Notes under the pieces: generated by a model | Told to the model about the DNA's origin: nothing | Seen by the model: only the letters and a program-made list of their open reading frames with translations | The model's database searches: none | In this document: piece by piece, positions 1 through 6,305 of the stretch | How positions within the stretch are numbered: position 1 is the first letter of the stretch | Layout: each line of letters begins with the position of its first letter | NCBI GenBank assembly: GCA_903854725.1 | Contig: CAINWZ010000011.1 | Location: 1-49,967 of the forward strand | From: an uncultured Bacteroidota bacterium | GTDB taxonomy: Bacteria; Bacteroidota; Bacteroidia; Chitinophagales; Chitinophagaceae | Length of the DNA: 49,967 bases | Reading direction: 5' to 3' | Translations under genes and position numbers: made by a program

Positions 1-166
1 CTAGTATATAAATAACTTATTTTATATTAAGAGGTTGTTCTTACACCTCAAATTATAAATATCTATTATGATTAATTTGGTATTAATACTTAATTTTTTG
101 ATTAAACTTGTTGTAATTTAGTATTTGCAATGAAATTTGTTGGTACAAATCGTAAAATATTCATAC

Positions 167-895
167 ATGAACAAACATATACATGATTTATTGATGAATA
201 TCTTCGGTGGTTTTTTAGTTGTTATTATAGATAGACTAATTATATATTTCCAAAAATATTTCAAAGGACTTGGGTTTAAAAAAATATTTGGAGGTGAAAT
301 TAATGACTATTACATAGTTTATGGGAAAATGATATTAAACCCTGTTTATTCAAGCAAGGATCCATTTCCATATTTAAAGCCCAATTCTTCTGCAATTTTT
401 AATATGACAAATCCGGTTTCATATTCTGAAACTAGAGCATCGAAATATCTATCTATTTCCTTTTTTAATAATTTGAAGTCAAGTCCAAAGCTATTATCTG
501 ACGATGAATTAAATGAGAAATTAGATATTTCATATTGTTCTCTTGGCGGATATAACAATTCTAAAACAATAAGTATTCTAAGTAGTGAGGAAAATAAGTT
601 TTATGCGTTTGAATCGAATAAAATCACTTCAAAAAGAGAAAAGAATAAAACATTTTTTATTGATAGTGAATTTGACTATGCAATAATTATAAAAATAAGA
701 AATAAATATTTTCCAAATAGGGTTCAGATTTGTGTTGCTGGATTAGGAGAGTGGGGTACAAGTGGAGCTTCTTGGTTTCTTGCAAACAAGTGGAAAGAAT
801 TAAAGAAATGTATTAATGGAAAAAACTTTGGAGCTATTATTAGAGTTAGATTTCAAATAGATGAATCTGCGGAATTAGTTGAAGTTTTAGCTTAA
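167..895 (+). CDS. membrane-anchored protein of unknown function (one N-terminal TM helix plus soluble domain)
   Basis: ORF 137..895; ATG at 167 preferred. Hydrophobic segment LLMNIFGGFLVVIIDRLIIYF near the N-terminus, then a soluble region with the motif ICVAGLGEWGTSGASWFLANKWKEL near the C-terminus. Confidence 0.7.
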   Translation: MNKHIHDLLMNIFGGFLVVIIDRLIIYFQKYFKGLGFKKIFGGEINDYYIVYGKMILNPVYSSKDPFPYLKPNSSAIFNMTNPVSYSETRASKYLSISFFNNLKSSPKLLSDDELNEKLDISYCSLGGYNNSKTISILSSEENKFYAFESNKITSKREKNKTFFIDSEFDYAIIIKIRNKYFPNRVQICVAGLGEWGTSGASWFLANKWKELKKCINGKNFGAIIRVRFQIDESAELVEVLA

Positions 896-1063
896 AATAT
901 ATTTGATTTCATCATACACATAAAACCCATTTAGTTAAATCAAAGCATGATTGTATTTTTATCTTTGATTTAAGATGCTGATTATTAGTGTTTTAATCTA
1001 ATATTTTATAAAATAATAATGATCGGTAAATGTTAAATTCGGTTATTGTTCAATTTATTGTTG

Positions 1064-1071
1064 TACTTTTG
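1064..1071 (+). promoter_or_regulatory. candidate Bacteroidota -7 element (TACTTTTG) upstream of the Panacea-domain gene
   Basis: Matches TAnnTTTG, 50 bp upstream of the ATG at 1122; the -33 element is not convincing. Confidence 0.35.
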
Positions 1072-1115
1072 ATTTCTAATTTCAATTCTATAATAATTAT
1101 ATTGCAATTAGAAAT
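1072..1115. repeat. inverted repeat immediately upstream of the Panacea-domain gene (possible operator)
   Basis: ATTTCTAATT (1072-1081) and AATTAGAAAT (1106-1115) are perfect 10-bp inverted arms; an inner palindrome TATAAT-A-ATTATA lies at 1089-1101. Confidence 0.5.
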
Positions 1116-1121
1116 ATTCAA

Positions 1122-1712
1122 ATGAGAGGATTTAACTACAAAAAATCTGTCCAAGCCCTTAACATTTTAGCCTTTAAAAATGGTGGTGTAATCAATAAAA
1201 TGAAAGCTATTAAATTAATTTGGCTTTCTGATAGGTTACATATAAGAAAGTTTGGTAGAACAATTACCGGTGATGATTATTATGCATTACCAAATGGCCC
1301 AGTACCTTCTGCAACGAGAGATATTCTTGAAAGTAGTAATTTTTTAGATGATGTTGCTTCAGATTATGCAAAAGAGTATATAACTGAAATAGATAAATAC
1401 AATTATACATCAGTAATTAAAGCAAATACAAAAGTTTTTTCAATTACTGATATTGAAATTATTAACCAAATATTTGATCATTTTGGTAAAGATGATCATT
1501 TTGACCTATCAAATTTTTCTCATCTTTTCCCTGAGTGGAAAAGACACGAGTCTGCATTAGCAAAGAAATTATCATCAAGGTACCAGATTAATCAACTTGA
1601 CTTTTTTATAAACATCAATGAAAAAAGTGGATTATTTACTGATTCATCAGATTCATTAGATATTGTAAAGCAAATCTTCGAGGAATATCAACTTTTACAG
1701 AATACATTGTAA
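1122..1712 (+). CDS. Panacea domain (SocA/DUF4065-like) protein, putative antitoxin
   Basis: N-terminus NYKKSVQALNILAFKNGGVINKMKAIKLIWLSDRLHIRKFGRTITGDDYYALPNGPVPS is typical of Panacea/SocA-like proteins; overlaps the next ORF by one base (TAATG). Confidence 0.85.
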   Translation: MRGFNYKKSVQALNILAFKNGGVINKMKAIKLIWLSDRLHIRKFGRTITGDDYYALPNGPVPSATRDILESSNFLDDVASDYAKEYITEIDKYNYTSVIKANTKVFSITDIEIINQIFDHFGKDDHFDLSNFSHLFPEWKRHESALAKKLSSRYQINQLDFFININEKSGLFTDSSDSLDIVKQIFEEYQLLQNTL

Positions 1713-2152
1713 TGAAGATACCTTCAGAACTATTTATAAGAGCAATTCAAGAACGAAAGGTTTATTATTTTACATCCGAAAAAATATCTTCTGAAGAACC
1801 ACACCATTTTATTTGTTTAAAAAAAACAGACGAAGATATTTTAATAATGAGTTGTTGTACTTCACAGTATCCTACAATGATAAGACTTCTTGAAAAGAAT
1901 AATCTACCAAATGAAACTATTGTTTGGGTTAGTCCTGCGGACGAAGAGAATCCATTTACTAAAAATACATATGTGAATTGCAATGAATATTTTACGTATA
2001 CAATCGATGAGTTTAAAAATTTGTATGAATCAGATAAAGTAAAATTCACAGGGGAAATTTCCGAGATACATTATGAACAAATTTTGATTGGTATACAAAT
2101 GAGTCCATTAATTGATGATGAGACAAAAGAACTTCTACCAAAACCTTATTGA
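1712..2152 (+). CDS. putative toxin partner of the Panacea-domain antitoxin
   Basis: 146-aa ORF whose start overlaps the antitoxin stop; HHFICLKKTDEDILIMSCCTSQYPT resembles small proteins I recall next to SocA-like genes. Toxin function inferred from context. Confidence 0.6.
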   Translation: MKIPSELFIRAIQERKVYYFTSEKISSEEPHHFICLKKTDEDILIMSCCTSQYPTMIRLLEKNNLPNETIVWVSPADEENPFTKNTYVNCNEYFTYTIDEFKNLYESDKVKFTGEISEIHYEQILIGIQMSPLIDDETKELLPKPY

Positions 2153-2189
2153 AATTAACTTATTCTCAATAGATACCAAGTTCCAATAG

Positions 2190-2222
2190 AAAAGTGGTTT
2201 TATGTCAAAATGACTACTTTTT
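2190..2222 (+). terminator. candidate terminator downstream of the putative TA operon
   Basis: AAAAGTGGT ... ACTACTTTT hairpin (one mismatch) ending in a T run. Confidence 0.45.
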
Positions 2223-2301
2223 CACCCGAATAAAGGCTAGAACTCAAGATATAAAGTTCCTCCAGAAGTTGCAACATTGGTGCGTAAGGGGAGCACAAAA
2301 G

Positions 2302-2339
2302 AAAAGCCTTGTCGCGAGAAATCGGGACAAGGCTTTTTT
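2302..2339 (+). terminator. strong rho-independent-like terminator
   Basis: AAAAGCCTTGTC (2302-2313), 12-nt loop, GACAAGGCTTTT (2326-2337), perfect 12-bp stem followed by Ts. Confidence 0.75.
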
Positions 2340-2464
2340 ATTGGTTATTAGTGAGTTAGGATTTTCTTGTCAGCATATAAATACGCTGTTTTCTATTCAT
2401 TTTCCTTCAGATATTCATTTTTAATAAAGTAGTTGAAATATTTTATTAAAGTTCCATTTTAAGT

Positions 2465-2472
2465 TAACTTTG
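2465..2472 (+). promoter_or_regulatory. candidate -7 element TAACTTTG for the HigBA-like locus
   Basis: Matches TAnnTTTG, ~16 bp upstream of the residual toxin ATG at 2488. Confidence 0.4.
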
Positions 2473-2487
2473 TAAACGAAGGATTCT

Positions 2488-2635
2488 ATGAATCAAGTTA
2501 GAGAGCTGTTTTTTTGATAAAGGGAAAATTGTTATTTTATTAAATGGTTACCAAAAGAAAACACAAAAAACTTCCCTTAAAGAAATTGAGATGGCGAGTA
2601 AATTAATGAAGGAATATTTTAGTACAACTAAATAA
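2488..2635 (+). pseudogene. HigB/Gp49-like toxin remnant with internal deletion and frameshift
   Basis: Frame at 2488 reads MNQVRELFF then stop; frame at 2492 continues FFDKGKIVILLNGYQKKTQKTSLKEIEMASKLMKEYFSTTK*, which matches the HigB-family C-terminus. The middle of a ~110-aa toxin is missing. Confidence 0.8.
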
Positions 2636-2642
2636 ATAAGTA

Positions 2643-2945
2643 ATGGCAAAGAAAGAAAAAAATATTACAAATTTTAATGAGCATTTGACTGGACGTTATG
2701 GTGAAAGAGGTTCAGAGAGGAGAACTGTATTTGAAATTAAAGCAAAAGCCTTTCTTATAGGAGAGTTAATAAAAGAAGAAAGAAAAAATGCTAAAATGAC
2801 GCAAGAACAATTGGCAGATAAGATTGGAGCCAAAAAAAGTTTTATCTCTAGAATTGAAAATGGTAAAACAGATATTCAACTTTCTACTTTATATAGGCTG
2901 CTTGAATTTGGACTAGGTAAAACTGTGGAAGTTTCTGTTAACTAA
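2643..2945 (+). CDS. HigA-like XRE/HTH antitoxin
   Basis: HTH MTQEQLADKIGAKKSFISRIENGKTDIQLSTLYRLLEFGLGKTVEV; directly downstream of the HigB remnant. Confidence 0.85.
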   Translation: MAKKEKNITNFNEHLTGRYGERGSERRTVFEIKAKAFLIGELIKEERKNAKMTQEQLADKIGAKKSFISRIENGKTDIQLSTLYRLLEFGLGKTVEVSVN

Positions 2946-3208
2946 AACTGCTGCATCAAATTATAATATTCAACGCTTTTTTTTATTTTATAAAAAGGCA
3001 GTGTTTCCATTAATACTTTAACCTGCTCCTCTTCTACATCTTTAAAAATTAAGACGGCGCCATTTCTAGCTTGTCTCAAAAATAAATGCTCAAGAATTCC
3101 TTGTTCCTTCCAAACAGCTACAACTTCTTGCTCCTGCTTCAATAATTCAGGAAAATTACCAGGAAGGTTCTCCATATCTAGCGTTAAAATTACCTGTACT
3201 CTGTTCAT
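2942..3208 (-). CDS. small YciI/muconolactone isomerase-like protein
   Basis: 88-aa ORF, small alpha/beta dimeric-barrel-like sequence (MNRVQVILTLDMENLP...AVLIFKDVEEEQVKVLMETLPFYK). Confidence 0.6.
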   Translation of the reverse strand: MNRVQVILTLDMENLPGNFPELLKQEQEVVAVWKEQGILEHLFLRQARNGAVLIFKDVEEEQVKVLMETLPFYKIKKSVEYYNLMQQF

Positions 3209-3265
3209 GTTATTTTATTATACTACCAAAATACTAATTCTTTGCAATTTTTCAAAATCTACCAC

Positions 3266-4129
3266 CTATTTATAAAGTATGCCACAAACTAATACTAGTG
3301 ATGCAGTCTCGCTCTCATTTATAATTACGGTTACATGATCTCCGATTTTTAATATAGATTTTGTAATAATACCTGCTGAATTTCTTATTACAGTTTTTTC
3401 TGTTAGCTTAATTTGCTGATTTTCACCATTCCCCTTTTTACCTTTAATAGTAATGGATAGACTATCCATTGCAACTATTACCCCAGTTCCGCCTGTTCCA
3501 TTACATAGGTCGCAACATTTAGCTGAACCATTTTGAAGGCTTTTAAAATTATCTAAAGTAGTATGATGTGCACCAGCTTCGAAACTTATTGGCAGCGTTA
3601 TATTCTTATAATAGGCGATTATATAAATAGAGGCAATCAATAGGATGATGGTTGTAGAAGTAATAATTAATATTTTTTTAATCAAAGGTGAAAATCTAGA
3701 AAACAGTGTAAAGCACCAATAGCCTATCATTACACCAAGTCCATTGAGTATTACGTCATCAATATCAAATATACCTAGATGTAAAAATGCTTGCATTCCT
3801 TCTATTATAAAACCAGTAGCAATGGAAGTGGCTATTATTTTTTTCCAGGAGGAGTGTACAATAGTTAAAGGGAATAAAAATCCAATGGGTACAAATAAAA
3901 TAATATTTCCTACAATATTTATGCTTGCTATAATTAATCCATTCTTGCCAAGGAAATAAGGTATTATGGTTTTAAAAGGGGTAAGATTAGCTGGGCCTTC
4001 ATGTGTGCCTCCGAAATTCAACATGAGTGTACCTATCCTTACAAGGGGCATATCTTTAAATACCAATATTTTAATGAGAATAATGAAATACAATAATAGA
4101 ATAGCGACAGCTATCAAATGTTTTTTCAT
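3266..4129 (-). CDS. VanZ family membrane protein with C-terminal soluble extension
   Basis: NLTPFKTI...INIVGNIILFVPIGFLFPL and IDDVILNGLGVMIGY VanZ motifs; C-terminal CCDLCNGTGGTGVIVAMDSLSITIKGKKG... extension. Confidence 0.8.
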   Translation of the reverse strand: MKKHLIAVAILLLYFIILIKILVFKDMPLVRIGTLMLNFGGTHEGPANLTPFKTIIPYFLGKNGLIIASINIVGNIILFVPIGFLFPLTIVHSSWKKIIATSIATGFIIEGMQAFLHLGIFDIDDVILNGLGVMIGYWCFTLFSRFSPLIKKILIITSTTIILLIASIYIIAYYKNITLPISFEAGAHHTTLDNFKSLQNGSAKCCDLCNGTGGTGVIVAMDSLSITIKGKKGNGENQQIKLTEKTVIRNSAGIITKSILKIGDHVTVIINESETASLVLVCGILYK

Positions 4130-4139
4130 TAAATATCTT

Positions 4140-5336
4140 TTATTTAATTACCCCTAATTCTTTTCCCACTTCAATAAAGGAGGTAATTGCATGATCTAAT
4201 TGTTCCTTACTATGTCCTGCAGATATTTGTACACGTATTCTTGCTTGACCTTTGGCCACTACTGGGTAATAAAAACCAATTACATAAATTCCTTTCTCTA
4301 ATAGTTTTTCAGCCATTTTTTGAGACACCACTGCGTCATATAACATGATGGGGATGATTGGATGTTCTCCTGGTTTTATATCAAACCCTGCAGCTAAAAT
4401 TTTCTCTCTAAAATATTTTGTATTTTCTTCAAGCTTATCACGTAACGTAGTAGTTTTTGACAATAAATCAAACACTGCAATGGATGCTCCAGTAATGGAA
4501 GGTGCTAAAGTATTTGAAAATAAATAAGGTCTAGATCTTTGTCTTAATAAATCTATAATTTCTTTACGACCCGAAGTAAATCCACCAGAAGCGCCACCCA
4601 AGGCTTTGCCTAAGGTTCCAGTGATGATATCAATTTTACCCATGACGCCTTTTAATTCATGCACACCTCTTCCTGTTTTACCCATAAATCCAGATGAGTG
4701 ACACTCGTCAATCATTATTAAAGCCTCATATTTTTCGGCCAACGCGACAATTTTATCTAATTGAGCAATAGTGCCATCCATTGAGAATACACTGTCTGTT
4801 ACAATCATTTTTTGTTGAGCACCATCTGCCATAGCTAGTTTTAACTTAGCTTCTAAGTCTTCCATAGAATTGTGGTCATACCTATAGCGCATCGATTTAC
4901 ACAATCGAATGCCATCAATAATAGAGGCATGATTCAAAGCATCTGAAATAATAGCATCCTTTTCGCCTAATAATGGTTCAAATACACCACCATTGGCATC
5001 AAAGGCAGCAGCGTATAGGATAGTATCTTCTGTTCCTAAAAAAGTTGAAATTTTTTGTTCTAATGTTTTATGAATATCCTGGGTACCACAAATAAAACGA
5101 ACTGATGACATTCCAAATCCGTGTGTATCGATAGCATCTTTAGCTGCTTGAATTACTTGAGGATGTGAAGAAAGACCTAAGTAGTTATTGGCACAAAAAT
5201 TAAATACTTTTTGTCCGCCTTGTATGGTAATTTCTGCAGATTGTGCTGAAGTGATTACGCGTTCTTTTTTAAATAAACCAGCTTCCTTTATTGATTCTAT
5301 TTCTTTTGTGATGAAAGATTTATATTGTTCGTACAT
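4140..5336 (-). CDS. kbl: glycine C-acetyltransferase (2-amino-3-ketobutyrate CoA ligase)
   Basis: Class II alpha-oxoamine synthase: FNFCANNYLGLSSHP, DECHSSGFMGKTGRGVHE, TGTLGKALGGASGG; next to a threonine dehydrogenase-like epimerase. Confidence 0.95.
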   Translation of the reverse strand: MYEQYKSFITKEIESIKEAGLFKKERVITSAQSAEITIQGGQKVFNFCANNYLGLSSHPQVIQAAKDAIDTHGFGMSSVRFICGTQDIHKTLEQKISTFLGTEDTILYAAAFDANGGVFEPLLGEKDAIISDALNHASIIDGIRLCKSMRYRYDHNSMEDLEAKLKLAMADGAQQKMIVTDSVFSMDGTIAQLDKIVALAEKYEALIMIDECHSSGFMGKTGRGVHELKGVMGKIDIITGTLGKALGGASGGFTSGRKEIIDLLRQRSRPYLFSNTLAPSITGASIAVFDLLSKTTTLRDKLEENTKYFREKILAAGFDIKPGEHPIIPIMLYDAVVSQKMAEKLLEKGIYVIGFYYPVVAKGQARIRVQISAGHSKEQLDHAITSFIEVGKELGVIK

Positions 5337-5345
5337 AATGTATTT

Positions 5346-6305
5346 TTACTTTGTAGTATAATTAAAATATAAGGGCAATTTAGTTAATATTTCAGAAGTC
5401 ATTTTAGAAATATCAAATTGTGCTTTCCATCCCCAATCCTTTTGAGCACAAGCATCGTCAATACTCTTAGGCCAAGTATCTGCAATTTGTTGTCTAAAAT
5501 CGGGTTTGTAATTAATTGTAAAATTTGGATACTGTAATTTTATGCACTCGAAAATTTCTTGAGGTGAAAAACTCATCCCCGATAAATTATAACTACTTCT
5601 AATTTTTATACTTGATGCAGGCGCCGCCATTAATTGCAAAGTGGCATTTACCGCGTCCTCCATGTACATCATAGGCAAATAAGTATCTGATTGTAGAAAA
5701 CAGGTGTAGGCTTCCTCTTTTACTGCTTTATGAAATATGTCCACTGCATAATCGGTAGTGCCTCCGCCTGCCATTGATTTATATCCTATGAGTCCTGGAT
5801 ATCTCAAACTTCTTACATCTACTCCATACTTATTAAAATAATACTCGCACCAATGTTCTCCAGCTAATTTTGAAATGCCATAAACTGTAGTTGGATTTTT
5901 AAAAGCATCTTGGGCTGTATTTATCTTAGGCGAATCTGGCCCAAACACAGCAATAGAACTTGGCCAAAATATTTTACTGATATTGTATTCTCTAGCTAAT
6001 TCTAACACAGTTAACAAGCCACCCATATTCATATCCCATGATTGTATTGGATTTTTTTCGCCAGTTGCCGAAAGGATTGCTGCTAAGTGATATACTTGTG
6101 TTATCTGTTCTTCTTTTATCAAACTTGCAGCAGCTTCCTTATCCATAATATTTAAGACCTTAAAACTGCAATAATCAAATTTGGATCTAGCACTTTCTTG
6201 AAAATCTGTTGCAATGACAGCATTACTACCGTATGTATTTACTAATGCTTTTGTAAGTTCTGTTCCTAGTTGCCCACCTGCGCCTATCACTAATATCTTC
6301 TCCAT
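5346..6305 (-). CDS. NAD-dependent epimerase-family L-threonine 3-dehydrogenase
   Basis: Rossmann motif ILVIGAGGQLGTEL, YGISKLAGE (YxxxK), ATGEKNPIQSWDMNMGG; operon-like with kbl. Confidence 0.88.
   Translation of the reverse strand: MEKILVIGAGGQLGTELTKALVNTYGSNAVIATDFQESARSKFDYCSFKVLNIMDKEAAASLIKEEQITQVYHLAAILSATGEKNPIQSWDMNMGGLLTVLELAREYNISKIFWPSSIAVFGPDSPKINTAQDAFKNPTTVYGISKLAGEHWCEYYFNKYGVDVRSLRYPGLIGYKSMAGGGTTDYAVDIFHKAVKEEAYTCFLQSDTYLPMMYMEDAVNATLQLMAAPASSIKIRSSYNLSGMSFSPQEIFECIKLQYPNFTINYKPDFRQQIADTWPKSIDDACAQKDWGWKAQFDISKMTSEILTKLPLYFNYTTK

Follow-up and report, generated by a model that had tools for sequence, protein, structure and literature searches.

A probable PanAT-type toxin-antitoxin operon that pairs a Panacea protein with a predicted, divergent MazF-fold partner in an uncultured Chitinophagaceae bacterium

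The SocAB system of Caulobacter resembles the locus analyzed here in possessing an antitoxin with a Panacea/SocA domain; its toxin SocB, an inhibitor of the DNA sliding clamp that needs ClpXP with SocA as the adaptor, differs from the toxin described here (PanT), which has a predicted MazF fold. In MazEF, the antitoxin is the AbrB-type protein MazE, the C-terminal tail of which covers MazF, whereas the antitoxin of the present pair is a Panacea protein (PanA). PanT resembles the toxins of MazEF/PemIK (PF02452) in its predicted fold, a colinear profile match, and a threonine at the catalytic position, but lies below the range of Pfam detection, has histidine in place of the catalytic arginine, and, at 146 aa, exceeds MazF (~110 aa), with longer, helix-containing loops.

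Pairs of PanA with MazF-like toxins were published in 2022 by Kurata et al., who reported that PanA neutralizes predicted MazF-like toxins of Pseudomonas moraviensis and Bifidobacterium ruminantium, that both toxins inhibit protein synthesis, and that PanA and PanT of the P. moraviensis pair form a complex (PMC8832971). Likened by description, those PanATs and the present locus share a Panacea antitoxin, a toxin with a predicted EndoA/PemK/MazF fold but no conserved-domain match, and the organization as a two-gene operon; seen here, in comparison, are the antitoxin in first place in all sampled pairs, a long PanA tail, and histidine or lysine at the position of the catalytic arginine. Given the 2022 publication, the pair is a new, sequence-divergent example of an already known kind of toxin-antitoxin (TA) pair.

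Here, we analyze this pair in a contig of 49,967 bases (the window, that is, the whole stretch of DNA under analysis) from a draft genome of 2.29 Mb in 176 contigs, estimated to be 93% complete, which its relatives place in the Bacteroidota. With a probability of about 85%, the locus is a type II TA operon of the PanAT kind, in which a MazF-fold RNase, PanT, is held by PanA. A toxin family that has no name in Pfam, PADLOC, or PHROGs is thereby placed on the predicted MazF fold and assigned its antitoxin.

The gene pair and its conservation

The two ORFs and their one-base overlap, as given in the initial annotation, were borne out (Table 1). At the junction, TAATG, the antitoxin stop codon TAA occupies positions 1710-1712, the last of which is also the first base of the toxin ATG, an arrangement that, judged from the sequence, suggests translational coupling of PanA and PanT; the nearest relative (L015) has the identical 1-bp overlap between antitoxin and toxin. 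The Panacea gene is the single one in the genome, and no second copy of the toxin was found there. A scan for sigma-70-type promoters yielded matches at approximately chance level, and the terminator search run alongside it detected none.

Table 1. Positions of the features discussed, in the window or, where a locus is named, in that locus
Feature	Positions	Strand	Description and evidence
241-aa protein	170-895	+	N-terminal long helix or membrane segment; conserved GLGExGTxGAxWFL motif
PanA antitoxin	1122-1712	+	196 aa; PF13274, E = 3e-20; alignment; tail analysis
PanA C-terminal tail	1542-1709	+	Proposed toxin-binding element; tail lengths; putative function
TAATG stop-start overlap	1708-1712	+	1 bp common to both ORFs; sequence
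PanT toxin	1712-2152	+	146 aa; predicted MazF/PemK fold; AlphaFold2, Foldseek, hhalign
Decayed HigBA	2500-2945	+	XRE antitoxin intact at 2643-2945; toxin fragment just upstream
Membrane protein gene	3266-4129	-
kbl	4140-5336	-	Flank of the accessory stretch 1-4137
L037, Panacea-MazF-like pair	1-4038		Follows terminase and portal-like genes of a phage block (ORFs by eye)
L038, Panacea-MazF-like pair	2995-4073		In a phage tail region (ORFs by eye)
L039, Panacea-MazF-like pair	2977-5897		Precedes terminase-like phage genes (ORFs by eye)
L080, Panacea	149-757	-	Long-tailed; at contig end

The profile PF13274 (SocA_Panacea) matched residues 31-140 of the upstream protein (E = 3.3e-20; 73.5 bits against a cutoff of 25.7). 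The domain is thus the core of the protein and reaches beyond the N-terminus, so that the earlier identification of a Panacea/SocA-like domain stands but its restriction to the N-terminal part does not. Neither PanA nor PanT matched any of the PADLOC models.

Searches with the toxin, using both the single sequence and profiles, produced 17 loci: the window, a Chitinophagaceae MAG that carries a close relative of the gene pair (L004), another genome of the same family (L005), the Thermotogota phage Marinitoga camini virus 1 (L007), and other Bacteroidota genomes (L008-L012, L015, and L018-L024). A Panacea gene lies directly upstream of the toxin in 16 of these 17, the exception being a truncated ORF of 103 aa (L023). 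In the reverse direction, when viral contigs were searched with the antitoxin, a toxin homologue was present downstream in 5/5 loci, two of which (L039 and L040) seem to belong to a single lineage. Co-conservation, on which the proposal of a pair had been made to depend, was thus found in both search directions and across phyla, and this refutes the notion that an orphan Panacea gene and an unrelated small gene are neighbors by chance, for which only the partner's lack of named domains had spoken and which we consider virtually impossible.

The order is always antitoxin followed by toxin, the intergenic distance ranging from -68 to +58 bp in 20 pairs. Across the same number of pairs, the identity matrices of PanA and PanT correlate (r = 0.71, permutation p = 2e-4); this correlation in part reflects common descent and hence is evidence of joint inheritance, not proof of an interaction. 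Scans of viral contigs and of plasmids for close relatives of the toxin found nothing, and a scan of phage records with the toxin gave one match, Marinitoga camini virus 1.

Fold and active site of PanT

By sequence, PanT, which has a conserved TYVNCN motif at residues 86-91, matched no Pfam family at E values up to 1, PF02452 included; its relatives, compared with PF02452, lacked a Pfam match as well, and searches of PADLOC and PHROG with PanT gave no match worth naming. The NCBIfam model NF045891 (Mbov_0400 family ICE element protein) aligned with residues 61-129 (E = 8.5e-5) but was rejected as the family of PanT, its 22.8 bits being below the family cutoff of 55; a literature search on this model found no paper. 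The only PDB sequence matches of the toxin profile, to CDC27 (E = 0.003), were dismissed as spurious in view of the fold search, which favors MazF, and one candidate relative (L006, E = 0.006) was discarded given that the match lies inside a 737-aa protein.

The initial annotation had named no fold for the 146-aa protein and proposed structure prediction as a check. The AlphaFold2 model, built from 17 sequences, has a pLDDT of 96.4 and a pTM of 0.89 and displays a MazF/PemK fold. In a Foldseek search of the PDB, the best match was MazF 4mzp (E = 4e-5, TM 0.71 normalized to MazF), the top matches were MazF proteins (E = 4e-5 to 1e-3, TM to target 0.61-0.73), and the best 50 consisted of MazF/EndoA proteins and one CptN, which has a related fold, with an identity of only 6-16% between PanT and the MazF structures. 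The best matches in a viral structure library were PemK-like proteins and endoribonucleases. Comparison with hhalign aligned the toxin-family profile colinearly over 94 columns (E ~1.5e-4) with a canonical Bacteroidota MazF profile made from 14 PF02452 toxins of the same class; in the control, the profile-profile comparison of the toxin family with Panacea gave nothing (E = 0.5). In addition, a Panacea gene and a gene for a canonical MazF (PF02452) overlap at one locus (L074), and the toxin profile detects this MazF weakly (E = 5e-4), tying the toxin family to MazF by sequence and demonstrating that a Panacea-MazF pair exists in the same class. From the model and the profile-profile comparison, PanT is predicted to be a divergent protein of the MazF/PemK fold (SH3-like barrel).

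In Bacillus MazF, Arg25 and Thr48 are catalytic (PMC7354611), and the profile alignment places H31 and T50 of PanT, respectively, on these positions. Among the 20 aligned members, residue 31 is histidine in 14 and lysine in 6, thus basic in all and arginine in none; residue 50 is threonine in 17, serine in L037, and phenylalanine in L066. Since the canonical arginine is absent, the activity or specificity of PanT may differ from that of MazF. The missing arginine, the variation at residue 50, and the low identity to MazF structures would also suit a MazF-fold partner that is not a ribonuclease, but rather acts through another surface or serves as a non-toxic regulator in complex with the Panacea protein. 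However, the invariably basic residue 31 and the predominance of threonine at position 50 are what one would expect if the active site has been retained, a natural MazF with lysine at the arginine position, MazF4 of Mycobacterium tuberculosis, has been reported (PMC7354611), and broken toxins next to an intact Panacea gene (L018 and L022) are expected if the toxin is selected against. We consider a non-ribonuclease partner improbable. The PanAT-like toxin-antitoxin assignment of the initial annotation is well supported by the Panacea domain, the co-conservation, and the predicted MazF fold of PanT.

The C-terminal tail of PanA and a proposed mechanism

Beyond the Panacea core, PanA has a tail of 56 aa (residues 141-196) that carries a conserved DFF motif. 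A tail of 42-75 aa follows the core in all 21 PanAs that are paired with a PanT-family toxin, and the PanA with the canonical MazF partner (L074) has one of 68 residues; the sampled Panaceas with other or unseen partners have tails of 20-37 residues, with a sole exception of 51 residues (L080), in a sample with shared ancestry, in which HTH fusions of a single type make up many of the tail-less Panaceas and ancestry could account for part of the pattern. In this exceptional case, the contig end cuts off the downstream gene, and the Panacea tail is similar to the one in L087, where the toxin is present; from the tail rule, a MazF-like toxin would be predicted in the missing downstream DNA.

A precedent for tail-based neutralization is a PanA in which a Phd-C tail has been shown to neutralize Doc (PMC10440598). 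By analogy with this element and with the tail of MazE, the long tail of PanA is a candidate for a MazE-like neutralizing element, which we put forward as a hypothesis. A simple testable rule would follow, namely, that the promiscuous Panacea antitoxin might neutralize MazF-like RNases via its C-terminal tail, in parallel with the Phd-C element of the Doc-PanA pair. More tentatively, and as something that is quite possible, the toxins could constitute a separate, Panacea-specific MazF lineage with histidine or lysine in place of arginine, the antitoxins a Panacea onto which a MazE-like tail was grafted, and the length of the tail a predictor of the toxin class.

Under the proposed mechanism, PanA would be translated first, in step with PanT through the TAATG overlap, and would bind and inactivate PanT, its tail most likely covering the RNA groove of PanT as MazE does on MazF, and its Panacea core acting as a scaffold or sensor. 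Loss, inactivation, or alteration of PanA would set PanT free to cleave, most likely, single-stranded RNA (mRNA, possibly tRNA), with catalysis by T50 and the basic H31 that replaces the MazF arginine, and translation would stop. The biological role of the pair may lie in element maintenance or in a response to phages.

Genomic setting and biological role

An anti-phage role would take the form of abortive infection, with the Panacea core sensing the phage, the RNase being released, and phage production coming to a halt. Concerned with biological role, this reading is compatible with the type II TA operon favored here. Related TA families act in defense, a sensor role of Panacea is favored in a published analysis (PMC10440598), and relatives of the pair are carried by phages, beside the packaging and portal genes in L037 and in the tail region in L038, where exclusion of other phages would be useful. 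Conversely, the pair has no PADLOC match, no known defense gene was detected among the neighbors tested, and its sporadic spread (6/396 genomes of the phylum) fits any mobile TA pair; abortive infection is a possible but somewhat doubtful role. The phage-borne Panacea-MazF-like pairs (L037, L038, and L039) are possible exclusion modules.

The defense island that had been postulated at the left edge of the window found no support: the neighbors give only generic HTH matches in PADLOC, and the second TA locus on which the proposal drew has lost most of its toxin. At that locus, the XRE antitoxin is intact, as annotated, but the HigB-like (Gp49) toxin is reduced to a remnant of the C-terminal 35 residues (positions 56-90 of PF05973, E = 3e-9), the N-terminal part being lost. 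Position 1 of the window is the contig end. Beside kbl in four genomes of the same genus, the segment 1-4137 has no counterpart while kbl and its neighbor are conserved, which makes this stretch accessory; such status would be expected for TA loci in general and does not indicate defense.

The 241-aa protein encoded upstream of PanA has no family match, its AlphaFold2 model is weak (pLDDT 62), and the fold search gave no clear match. It has relatives in 2/249 genomes of the same family (L062 and L063), and all three copies are located at contig ends; as neither relative has a Panacea gene nearby, this ORF was rejected as a third TA component. Elsewhere in the accessory stretch, a membrane protein encoded on the opposite strand resembles, by eye, the VanZ family.
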